In this document: positions 11,392-20,539 of the stretch, piece after piece
How the letters are laid out: the number at the start of each line of letters is the position of its first letter
How positions within the stretch are numbered: the first letter of the stretch is position 1
Assembly: GCA_015152475.1 (NCBI GenBank)
Contig: SUTW01000006.1
Coordinates: 78,372-142,371 of the forward strand
DNA: 64,000 bases
Source of the DNA: Cyanobacteria bacterium SIG30
Lineage (GTDB): Bacteria > Cyanobacteriota > Vampirovibrionia > Gastranaerophilales > Gastranaerophilaceae
Direction of reading: 5' to 3'
Program-made: the position numbers and the translations under genes
The notes under the pieces: generated by a model
Databases searched by the model: none
Seen by the model: only the letters and a program-made list of their open reading frames with translations
Told to the model about the DNA's origin: nothing

Positions 11392-12204
11392 TTAGTAATT
11401 CATCTGCCAGCCTTCATCTATTATGCGAGCAGTGCAACCATAACCATTAACTTGTTTAATATTACCATCAGAACAACCAAGACTTACATTAGTACTAGTT
11501 TTCCAATGATATGCTTCAGGGTTTAAAGGGTCGATATATAGTGCATAGTCATAACCTCCTTCAGCATAAATTGAACCATTTGGAGCAACAATTAGTTCAA
11601 AAAGGTCACGACCAGCCTTATTAGGTCCTTTATCACCATTAACATCTATTAAAATTTGTCCTAAATCATATGGTAATTTACCACCCTTGCTTTTAATAAT
11701 CGGAATATTGGCAATTTGTTCCGGAAGCAAAACGGTGGAAGGATTAAAAGGATGAACAAAAACCGTTGAGCCATCGGCAAAATGAAAATATGGCAAAACA
11801 ATACTTGAAAGAGTTTGACCATTTAATCCAACATAGCCAAGGTCAGTCAATTTAGATGAGCTTGCCTCGGAATCGGTGACCTTAAACACTTTTGAAAATT
11901 CCGCAATAAAAGGTGAATAAACATTGCCTTCTAATTCATCCGGTGCCGCTTGCCACAAATTAGTATCTTCAAGTTTTGTAACACCATCATTTGCCATGGC
12001 ATTTTTAAAACCATTACTTAAAACCGAAACTGTTTTTTTAAGCTGAGTTACGTATTGTTGCTTTTGATAATTAACAATTAAAGTAGGGATTGTAAGTGCT
12101 GCAACAACGCCAATGATAGCTAATGTGATAAGTACTTCTGCAAGAGTGAAGGCTTTTAAACTTCTAGATGCCCCCCCCCCGTGATTAAAATTAAATCTAT
12201 ACAT
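11392..12204 (-). CDS. Pilin-like protein with prepilin leader and in-frame poly-G tract (10 G)
   Basis: Type IV pilin/pseudopilin-like protein, 270 residues. The leader is MYRFNFNHGGGASRSLKA, followed by the prepilin peptidase site KA|FTLAEV and a hydrophobic helix (LITLAIIGVVAALTIPTL). A run of ten G bases (12171-12180 as C on the + strand) encodes the three Gly plus the first base of Ala in the leader, so slippage would change the frame before the mature protein begins. With 10 G the gene is open. The C-terminal part carries DVNGDKGPNKAGRD, shared with the two pilins at 19-20 kb. GAAAGGA precedes the ATG. Such proteins are numerous in Gastranaerophilales-like genomes; the exact role (pilus, secretion or surface attachment) is not known. 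Confidence 0.88.
   Translation of the reverse strand: MYRFNFNHGGGASRSLKAFTLAEVLITLAIIGVVAALTIPTLIVNYQKQQYVTQLKKTVSVLSNGFKNAMANDGVTKLEDTNLWQAAPDELEGNVYSPFIAEFSKVFKVTDSEASSSKLTDLGYVGLNGQTLSSIVLPYFHFADGSTVFVHPFNPSTVLLPEQIANIPIIKSKGGKLPYDLGQILIDVNGDKGPNKAGRDLFELIVAPNGSIYAEGGYDYALYIDPLNPEAYHWKTSTNVSLGCSDGNIKQVNGYGCTARIIDEGWQMNY
12134..12186 (-). repeat. Copy 1 of the poly-G leader cassette (10 G)
   Basis: 53-base block that is identical to 19488-19541 except for one fewer G in the tract. It encodes the end of the leader and the start of the pilin helix. The homopolymer itself is 12171-12180. Confidence 0.9.
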
Positions 12205-17709: not shown

Positions 17710-17979
17710 ATGCAAGAATTACAAATAATAAAAACAACTGACGAAGAAGGCAAAGAGGTAGAATTAAAACTTCTAGACATAGTAAATGTTGACGACATTG
17801 ATTATGCACTTTTATTACCAAAAGATGCAGACCCAGAAGCCGATGACGCAGAAGTTGTTTTAATGCGTTTTAAAATAGAAAACGAAGAATATATCTTTGA
17901 AACAATTGATGATGACGATGAATTCGATCTTGTTGCACAAGCAATCATTGATGATGCAGAAGAAAATTACAAAGATTAA
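17710..17979 (+). CDS. DUF1292 family protein (YrzB-like)
   Basis: 89-residue very acidic protein starting directly after the ruvX stop. The pattern VELKLLDIVNVDDIDYALLLP and the central VVLMRFKIENEEYIFETIDDDDEF (seen here as MRFKIENEE and ETIDDDDEFD) are typical of DUF1292, whose function is not known but whose gene regularly follows ruvX. Its stop overlaps the convergent mazG by four bases. Confidence 0.88.
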   Translation: MQELQIIKTTDEEGKEVELKLLDIVNVDDIDYALLLPKDADPEADDAEVVLMRFKIENEEYIFETIDDDDEFDLVAQAIIDDAEENYKD

Positions 17980-18725
17980 TCTTCTTTTTTAGCATTTTTC
18001 CACAATAATTCCCATTCTTCGAAAGTTAATTTTTCCAAATCTTTTGAAGAATTTGCTTCCATATGTCTAAAACGTTTTTGAAACTTATTATTTGTTTTAA
18101 TTAATGCTTGTTCGGCATCAATATTATGCCAACGAGCCAAATTGACAAGTGCAAACAAAATATCGCCAAATTCTTCCTCTTTGTTTAATTCGGTTTTAGC
18201 GCTTTCAAATTCTTTAAATTCGCTTTTAATACATTCTTTTAATTGTTCTAAATTTTGCCATTCAAAACCAACTTTAACAGCTCTTTTAGAAATTTTTTGT
18301 GCACTCATAAGAGCTGATTGAGATTTAGAAATTCCATCCAAAACACTTTTTCTATGTGGTTTTTGTTCCTTTTTTATTTTTTCCCAATTATCTAAAATAA
18401 CATTTACGTCATCTGTTTTAATGTCACCAAAAACATGAGGATGTCTTTCAATAAGCTTTTCATTAATACCTTTTGCAACATCATCTAAATTAAATTCATT
18501 TTCTTCACTTGCTATTTGCGAATGCAAAACAACTTGAAGTAAAACATCACCTAATTCTTCTTTTAGATGTTTCATATCATTTGCATTTATTGCATCAACC
18601 GCCTCGTAAGCTTCTTCAAGCATATTTTGACGAAGCGAATAATGCGTTTGTTCACGGTCCCAAGCGCATCCATTTTCAGAACGTAGAATTTCTATAGTTT
18701 TAATAAGTTTAGACATATTTTCCAT
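17976..18725 (-). CDS. mazG: Nucleoside triphosphate pyrophosphohydrolase MazG
   Basis: All-alpha NTP pyrophosphatase that hydrolyses (d)NTPs to monophosphates and can lower damaged nucleotides or the (p)ppGpp response. 249 residues with two MazG repeats: the first has the metal ligands in EEAYEAVDAI and KEELGDVLLQV (EExxE and ExxD), the second EFKEFESA and EEFGDILFALVN. The start at 18725 (MENMSKL) is chosen over 18716 because a consensus promoter ends seven bases before it. There is no ribosome-binding site. It faces DUF1292 and lies 32 bases behind the out-of-frame pilin. Confidence 0.95.
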   Translation of the reverse strand: MENMSKLIKTIEILRSENGCAWDREQTHYSLRQNMLEEAYEAVDAINANDMKHLKEELGDVLLQVVLHSQIASEENEFNLDDVAKGINEKLIERHPHVFGDIKTDDVNVILDNWEKIKKEQKPHRKSVLDGISKSQSALMSAQKISKRAVKVGFEWQNLEQLKECIKSEFKEFESAKTELNKEEEFGDILFALVNLARWHNIDAEQALIKTNNKFQKRFRHMEANSSKDLEKLTFEEWELLWKNAKKED

Positions 18726-18732
18726 AGAAATT

Positions 18733-18761
18733 ATTATAAAATAGTCGAATTTTTATGTCAA
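18733..18761 (-). promoter_or_regulatory. Perfect-consensus leaderless promoter of mazG
   Basis: Minus strand: TTGACA (18761-18756), 17-base spacer, TATAAT (18738-18733), seven bases, ATG (18725). Both boxes match consensus exactly. The -35 box covers the last base pairs of the preceding pilin gene, whose stop is at 18758. Confidence 0.88.
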
Positions 18762-19559
18762 AAATTCCAAGGGTATTCTTCAGGTGCTCCACCCCAATCA
18801 ACATATTGTTGCTTAGTTGGAATTTTCCAGCCATTATAAACAGTAATAAGCGAAGTGCAATAAACACCACTTCCATGAGTTGTTGTATGTTTGCATCCAA
18901 ATTTATTATCAGAAATATTACCCTCAGGACTACCTGTTCCCATAAAACTAAATCTATAATTAGACTTTTTATTTATACCTGAAGGTTTATTGAACATAAG
19001 AACTTGAACATCAACACCCAATTTGTTTGGTTTTTTCCAGCCATTTGTATCAATAAATAACTGGATTTGAGAAGCATTAGAACCAGTCATACCACCTACA
19101 ACACTAAGTGTTATAGCAGTACCATTTACCAAATAAAAACGAGCAAAATCCTCATTATTAAAAAAACCATAATCAAATTTTTCACCGTTTAATTGATAAA
19201 TATCATAAATACAGTCAGAAGATGTTGATGTGCCACATATTTTTGCCGTTTTAGTATATGGAATAATATATTTTTCAGCAAAATTTTGTGCACTACTTCC
19301 CGTATTTGCAAATCCAAAATCCCAAGTCAAAATTGGTCCATGGTCCGCAACTGCTAAATAAAGAGAATTAGACAAAATGGAAAGAGCACTTTTTGTTTTT
19401 GTTTCAATTTCATTTTTTTTATAATTAGTAACAACGGATGGAATAGTAAGTGCTGCAACAACACCAATAATAGCAAGTGTGATTAAAACTTCTGCAAGAG
19501 TGAAGGCTTTTAAACTTCTAGATGCCCCCCCCCCCGTGATTTAAAGCAAATTTATTCAT
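18758..19559 (-). pseudogene. Pilin-like gene switched out of frame by an 11-G tract
   Basis: Starts at 19559 (MNKFALNH) with AGAAAGGA upstream. Eleven G bases follow (C at 19525-19535 on the + strand); in this frame the product stops at TAG after 13 residues. Removing one G, as in the copy at 11392-12204, restores ASRSLKA|FTLAEV, the pilin helix and an uninterrupted frame to 18758: the whole protein would be about 266 residues. It keeps DTNGWKKPNKLGVD, is otherwise undamaged, and is a close relative of the gene at 19724-20539 (both have DHGP..TWD and FARFYL.NGTAIT). It is therefore best read as a phase-off gene rather than a decayed one; a homopolymer error in the assembly is the alternative. 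Confidence 0.88.
19488..19541 (-). repeat. Copy 2 of the poly-G leader cassette (11 G)
   Basis: 54-base block identical to 12134-12186 apart from one extra G. The tract is at 19525-19535. Both off-frames meet stops at once: TAG after ATC, or TAA after CATCTAGAAGTT, so only one frame in three is productive. Confidence 0.9.
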
Positions 19560-19566
19560 AATTTTA

Positions 19567-19642
19567 AAAATCCTTTCTTAATTTCCGTATTTAAAAAATT
19601 TATCCTACGTTTTTATTATAACATTTTTTATAGATGTTTCAA
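19567..19642 (-). promoter_or_regulatory. Promoter and conserved 5' leader of pilin copy 2
   Basis: Minus strand TTGAAA (19642-19637), 16 bases, TATAAT (19620-19615) inside ATGTTATAATA, then a leader that repeats the one at 12242-12212, including AAGAAAGGA. The promoter is intact although the gene is out of frame. Confidence 0.7.
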
Positions 19643-19662: not shown

Positions 19663-19693
19663 AATAAAAAAAACGCCTTATTAAGATAAGGCG
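19663..19693 (-). terminator. Terminator of the third pilin-like gene
   Basis: Minus strand: CGCCTTA / TAAGGCG stem (19693-19687 with 19680-19674), 6-base loop, then eight T bases and TATTT. Confidence 0.85.
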
Positions 19694-19723
19694 CAAAATT
19701 AAGAAAAGTATATAAATTAAATC

Positions 19724-20539
19724 TTACCAAGGATAATTTTTTGCATAATCCTTATTTTCGGCCCATTTAACATATTGCTCTTTAGACGGAACTCTACCAT
19801 TATTATATAAATACATTAAACTTGTACACCACATGCCTGCATAAATCCCCGCAGATTTACTGCAACCTCTATATTGATTTGTAATAAGGGATTTAGCTTT
19901 TTTGCTTTCGCCTTCATAAGGCAAAGAGAGACGAAATCTATTCTTTGGATCGTAATCTTCATCCTCGAGATGAAGATTAATAAAATATGTTTGAACATCT
20001 ATGCCCATTTTATTTGGACCTCGCCAACCATTAAAATCGGTAAATAATTGAACCTCTCTTGTCTTTGTACCAATATGACCACCCAAAAAGAATGTTATTG
20101 CAGTACCATTAGCCAAATAAAAACGAGCAAATTCTTTCGGATAGTCATCAGTACTGTTCCAATCAAAAACTTCACCTTTTAAGTTATATATTTTATAATA
20201 ACAATCTTGCGTTTTTGATCTTTTGCAATTTTTTGCAATTTTAACGTACGGCAAAATATATTTTTCTATAAAATCTTCAGCATTATCAATATTACCAGTT
20301 ATACCAATATCCCAAGTATCAGTTGGTCCATGATCATAAACGGCTTTTCTTATAACATTACTCATAATCGAAAAAGATGTTTTTGCACCAGTTGAAATTT
20401 CTGTATGCCAATGATTTTTAATTGTTGTTGGAATTGTAATCGCTGCAACAACACCAATTATAGCAAGCGTAATTAAAACTTCAGCCAAAGTAAAAGCTTT
20501 CAAACTTTTATGGCCATATTTTTGACTAGTTAAAAACAT
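19724..20539 (-). CDS. Pilin-like protein without poly-G tract
   Basis: 271-residue pilin/pseudopilin-like protein. Leader MFLTSQKYGHKSLKA precedes A|FTLAEVLITLAIIGVVAAITIP. No G tract is present, so it should be expressed constantly from its own promoter. The body resembles the out-of-frame neighbour: DHGPTDTWDIG, a conserved YILPYVKIAKNC region, FARFYLANGTAITFF and DFNGWRGPNKMGID. Several Cys (CKRSKTQDCYY, RGCSKS, MWCTS) suggest disulphides outside the cell. Tandem duplication with the neighbour is likely. It is followed by its own terminator. Confidence 0.88.
   Translation of the reverse strand: MFLTSQKYGHKSLKAFTLAEVLITLAIIGVVAAITIPTTIKNHWHTEISTGAKTSFSIMSNVIRKAVYDHGPTDTWDIGITGNIDNAEDFIEKYILPYVKIAKNCKRSKTQDCYYKIYNLKGEVFDWNSTDDYPKEFARFYLANGTAITFFLGGHIGTKTREVQLFTDFNGWRGPNKMGIDVQTYFINLHLEDEDYDPKNRFRLSLPYEGESKKAKSLITNQYRGCSKSAGIYAGMWCTSLMYLYNNGRVPSKEQYVKWAENKDYAKNYPW

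Follow-up and report, generated by a model that had tools for sequence, protein, structure and literature searches.

The pilC1 and pilC2 genes of Neisseria are phase-variable through a run of 9-20 G within the reading frame (PMC5953494). In Bifidobacterium breve UCC2003 a G-tract switch operates at two sortase-pilus genes, bbr_0113 and bbr_1889, whose frames are interrupted in the reference genome; replication slippage restores the pilin frame and pili appear, as was shown by experiment (PMC9187656). This reference genome is therefore a precedent for tract genes that are OFF in assemblies; the paper adds the caution that G-tract lengths in assemblies may be wrong. At the scale of the genome, the phasomes of Neisseria are predicted to hold up to 54 loci in the gonococcus, 47 in the meningococcus and 36-82 in N. 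lactamica (PMC5953494). A 2025 review counts among the major open questions why large sets of phase-variable loci seem confined to the genomes of pathogens, and suggests that database bias may be the reason (PMC11868660). Type IV pili (pilA, B, C, D and T) are known from 'Melainabacteria' Tpq-Mel-01 (PMC5877343), which has its broad lineage and pilus machinery in common with the genome studied here; the text of that paper, searched for the terms, mentions neither tracts nor pilin phase variation.

The window (the whole 64,000-nucleotide stretch of DNA that was analysed) holds two members of a set of type IV prepilin genes with a G tract in the leader. The mechanism that we propose for them is of a known kind, that of Neisseria pilC, the B. 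breve sortase pili and the Neisseria phasomes. As in pilC, a coding poly-G run would be the on/off switch of a type IV pilus protein, but PilC is an accessory protein or adhesin in two copies, whereas the switched genes here are pilin-like subunits in tens of copies. The B. breve case also comes from a gut commensal, and there the G tract separates the secretion signal of the first pilin gene from its body; it differs in comprising two loci for sortase-dependent Gram-positive pili, against approximately 45 loci per genome for type IV prepilins, without experiment, in our case. The Neisseria phasomes likewise place tens of simple-repeat switches in each genome, yet they span many kinds of gene and repeat, whereas the window genome has one repeat type and one protein family. 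Within the literature searched, three things are new: the lineage in which the switches occur, how many of the pilins are switchable and, for the window genome, the confinement to a single protein family. In the open-access literature we found no account of gut Melainabacteria in which most genes of a large pilin family are switched; subscription full text was outside the search and an earlier description is possible. The set is apparently among the largest collections of random on/off switches devoted to one protein family, and it occurs in bacteria not known to be pathogens. Several genomes with dozens of such switches occur in this gut family, whose members are not known as pathogens and many of which are metagenome-only; in the window genome essentially all switches act on one family of surface fibres.

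The G tract in the leader of the 18758-19559 gene

The features of the locus are collected in Table 1. The ATG of the prepilin gene (19559-19557, minus strand) is followed by MNKFALNHGGGG, the eleven G at 19535-19525 and a TAG at 19520-19518, and the product as assembled is MNKFALNHGGGGI, 13 codons before the stop. With ten G instead of eleven, the frame runs for 266 codons and ends at a TGA (18760-18758). In this frame FTLAEVLITLAIIGVV begins at 19504, immediately after SLKA, and the open frame matches the Pfam family N_methyl (PF07963) above its cut-off. The criteria for a prepilin N-terminus are met: a short basic leader, F after the cleavage, E at +5 and a hydrophobic helix. Cleavage between A and F, that is between 19505 and 19504, is predicted from the motif and from the presence of a peptidase gene in the genome. 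Since the upstream pilin gene ends in a terminator, the gene would have its own transcript. Restart of translation past the tract was ruled out, with no ATG, GTG or TTG between the tract and FTLAE.

Table 1. Coordinates of the features in the window
Feature	Position	Strand	Basis
Second switchable prepilin gene, ON, 270 aa	11392..12204	-	sequence read
10-G tract of the 11392-12204 gene, in frame	12171..12180	-	tract scan
Prepilin gene, OFF in the assembly	18758..19559	-	sequence read; N_methyl match
Mature pilin coding part, 248 codons without stop	18761..19504	-	open frame; N-terminal helix profile matches PDB type IV pilins
Leader, about 18 codons if in frame; predicted cleavage at its end	19505..19559	-	SLKA/FTLAEVLI motif; peptidase gene present
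11-G homopolymer, putative switch	19525..19535	-	sequence read; shuffle expectation
Shine-Dalgarno site AAAGGA	19571..19576	-	sequence read; conserved in paralogues
Promoter-like site TTGAAA-16-TATAAT	19615..19642	-	11 of 12 positions; TG ahead of -10; similar region upstream of tract paralogues
Predicted intrinsic terminator of the upstream pilin gene	19673..19694	-	terminator prediction upstream of the 18758-19559 gene
Neighbouring paralogue without tract, leader MFLTSQKYGHKSLKA then F, always in frame	19724..20539	-	sequence read, leader comparison

The first-pass annotation had claimed that the eleven G close the frame after 13 codons, that one G fewer gives a pilin-like frame of about 266 residues reaching 18758, and that the leader, prepilin site and helix are intact; all of this held. 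So did its statements that promoter and ribosome-binding site are present (TTGAAA-16-TATAAT and AAAGGA) and that the rest of the gene has not decayed, with 248 open codons from the cleavage site to the TGA. The claim that switching changes only the on/off state and leaves the mature protein unaffected also held, the tract lying ahead of the predicted A/F site. Slipped-strand switching itself is supported in that it agrees with everything computable; a uniform 11 G with downstream decay, which would have spoken against it, was looked for and was not the case.

Only the helix of this pilin matches type IV pilins in a profile comparison, and by sequence its globular part is unlike solved structures. 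A fold model from a four-sequence alignment (pLDDT 52, pTM 0.50) showed a long helix and a sheet and was too weak to use; the model without alignment (pLDDT 37) was useless. The top match of a PDB fold search with the weak model was a pilin (3sok), at an E value of 0.024 that is not significant. A perfect TTGACA-17-TATAAT at 18733-18761 starts on the pilin stop codon, ahead of a MazG-like gene (17976-18725). A scan of the window for runs of at least 8 G gave seven overlapping matches, where shuffled sequence would give 0.08, and all are confined to the two pilin leaders. Rfam and tRNA searches across the window returned no matches.

The genome-wide set of tract genes

The assembly of the window organism, an uncultured relative of the cyanobacteria from the gut (1.49 Mb, 18 contigs), contains 101 nine-G words, which resolve to exactly 45 tracts: six of 9 G, twenty-two of 10 and seventeen of 11. 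The first-pass annotation had overlooked the second tract of the window (12180-12171, 10 G, ON) and the 43 others. Every run of at least nine G in the genome (n = 45) sits in a prepilin leader with the G on the coding strand; FTLAE follows in 44, and the remaining one is interrupted by a contig end past the same leader. Homology search of the genome gave approximately 55 pilin-like genes, some 45 of them with a tract. Outside the window the genome was examined as stretches around tracts and pilin matches. Six contig ends lie no more than about 130 bases from a G tract (G000 contigs C2, C4, C5, C7 and C16); assemblies are thus interrupted where the leaders repeat, and the set probably lacks further members.

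Frame state could be scored for 42 tract genes, of which 19 are ON and 23 OFF, the two kinds being intermixed and equally intact. All 21 OFF genes that are complete on their contig have undamaged bodies (227-260 codons), and of the 99 OFF bodies in the genomes examined 97 reach at least 180 codons. In every one of the 42 genes both wrong frames meet a stop no more than five codons from the tract, compared to 13% at random body positions, although these are not independent cases because the leaders share descent. The layout, the number of genes, their confinement to pilin leaders and the integrity of the OFF genes are shown, as is the presence of genes for pilus ATPases (five of the T2SSE family, PF00437) and a prepilin peptidase (PF06750). 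There are two MutS-type genes, and loss of mismatch repair was therefore rejected as the cause of slippage; hypermutability from MutS loss does not account for the tracts.

Among the paralogues only the leader, the N-terminal helix and the 60 bases that precede the ATG are conserved, with bodies and flanks on average at the level of shuffles. The paralogues without a tract have different leaders, some as short as MKKA/F. Thus, the tract-bearing leader is unnecessary for processing, and retention of the tract for reasons of the protein was rejected. Interrupted tracts were found in four leaders (L003, L015, L024 and L033), all of them in frame; one of these genes, L015, is cut short after 62 codons.

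Close paralogue pairs have dN/dS of approximately 0.2-0.5, whether ON or OFF. Orthologues of sister species that are OFF in both assemblies (dS 0.17) gave values of 0.25 (L141/L142) and 0.33 (L143/L144). Such OFF/OFF orthologues evolve under purifying selection; as they are not drifting towards 1, the protein must be made somewhere, sometimes. A single orthologue pair differed in tract length: L139 and L140 encode the same protein (dS 0.006), with tracts of G9 and G10-A, respectively.

Tract genes in the relatives

Runs of at least nine G followed by an FTLAE-type motif occur in 97 of 383 genomes and 16 of 41 genera of the organism's family, a Cyanobacteriota-type lineage of gut 'Melainabacteria' that is probably Gastranaerophilaceae; the reversed pattern, as a control, had no match in the same 383 genomes. 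In a phylum-wide sample the pattern was present in 61 of approximately 170 family genomes and absent from all of approximately 216 genomes sampled elsewhere in the phylum, with the proviso that it fixes the FTLAE motif and would miss pilins with other motifs outside the family. The flanks of the tract vary by genus (CATCTAGAAG in the window genome, CACAGGCGTAG in G022, CGACTCCTCTAAGTAG in genus g51), and the arrangement is therefore either old or repeatedly evolved. A body search with the 18758-19559 gene in named genomes returned one distant match only, at 44% identity, in an uncultured Candidatus Melainabacteria bacterium (L039), whose pilin gene, with ten G, is likewise out of frame.

The tract genes of the relatives are almost all out of frame. 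An initial tally of 8 ON among 70 was biased by the requirement for at least nine G; the excess of OFF persisted at loci picked by pilin homology, blind to the tract, where 1 of 33 was in frame (G022, G133, G244, G192 and G137). This is below the one third expected under free drift of length and counts against the slipped-strand reading, which leaves it unexplained. The tracts of G022 are nearly all exactly ten, where the in-frame lengths are eleven or eight. The offset is one G short in G022 and G133 and one G long in G244; thus, neither uniform undercalling nor a single programmed frameshift covers all of them. A population that is OFF by default is the simplest biological reading of the excess, and we regard it as a possibility.

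The same five relatives have 83-130 pilin-like genes per genome (approximately 1.6-2.8 Mb), an unusually large share of coding capacity. In several relatives a tract precedes a different class of pilin, FTLAEMMVVML (L120-L123, L145-L147 and L155-L156). The leaders of L120-L122, from G042, are near-identical, and their bodies are just 42-75% alike.

Slipped-strand switching as the probable reading, and its rivals

The best reading of these data, and in our judgment the likely one, is slipped-strand phase variation of the whole pilin repertoire. In this view some 45 type IV pilin-like genes of one genome would each carry, in the leader, a poly-G contingency switch independent of the others. Slippage at replication would add or remove one or two G. 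Every third length (mostly ten in the window genome) would place the pilin gene in frame, and at the other lengths translation would end a few codons past the run, upstream of the export signal. As the switching part precedes the processing site, the mature pilin would be identical whenever made; as promoter and tract are separate for every gene, many pilin combinations would coexist in a population. Switching of length within a population, expression of the ON genes and entry of their products into a pilus are inferred, with no reads, transcripts or proteins to support them.

The true lengths might instead all be in frame, the OFF states being homopolymer miscalls or arbitrary choices made by assembly at repeated leaders. 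G tracts are difficult to sequence, database lengths may depart from the true distribution (PMC9187656), nearly all G022 tracts are one short of ON and several contigs terminate at tract leaders; the lengths used here may be off by one, as homopolymer calls in assemblies are unreliable. The errors would have to be bidirectional, however, with one G in excess for the window genome and G244 and one lacking for G022 and G133, and inside one genome the required frame and the observed length vary independently. Miscalls also leave unexplained why the tracts exist, why they are confined to pilin leaders and why the wrong frames close so promptly. Even with calls off by one, runs of 9-11 G at the frame-critical sites of 45 genes remain prone to slippage. 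We consider an artefact unlikely. Similarly unlikely is programmed decoding, in which ribosomes would shift frame, or RNA polymerase slip, at the G run and a steady fraction of pilin would be made from out-of-frame genes whose DNA does not switch. The purifying selection on OFF/OFF orthologues is in keeping with it, and the near-uniform 10 G of G022, with a stop two codons on, is what a fixed frameshift site should look like. Yet the required shift varies, being -1 in G022 and G133 and +1 in G244 and most OFF genes of the window genome, no shift is needed in 19 of 42 genes of the latter, and the lengths vary. The least credible alternative is that the OFF genes are pseudogenes or silent recombination donors of the pilS kind, with crossover in the common leader and helix. 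A conserved leader and N-terminal helix with unconserved bodies does have the shape of a recombination cassette. Silent donors usually lack a promoter, a Shine-Dalgarno site, a start codon and a full-length frame; the OFF genes retain all four, and ON and OFF copies are mixed together and alike intact.

Slipped-strand switching, the preferred reading, also allows a bolder form, which we hold to be no more than possible: a default-OFF repertoire, in which tens of independent poly-G switches would keep nearly all pilins off in most cells. Each cell would then display one or few of approximately 50-130 pilins, and the population would sample the full set. If true, it would be a generator of diversity comparable to antigenic variation, attained solely through slippage and in bacteria not known as pathogens. 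If the switching is real, phages, host antibodies or attachment sites would be imposing changing selection on the pilins of gut Melainabacteria, and annotation pipelines would label dozens of their pilin genes as pseudogenes or truncated.

Long G runs were also seen outside pilins in the relatives. Runs of 9-14 G, very variable in length, lie in a repeated element in G016 (L061-L070) and G009 (L078-L079), with the forms CTTGCTACGACTTAGTATC-Gn-CAAGTTAAATGTACAACAGGAGTG and AATATGGGCCTGAACAGTA-G12-CAAGCCGAGCA. Runs of 10-14 G lie in or near non-pilin open frames in G014 (L072-L077) and G022 (L050), which may be other phase-variable genes.
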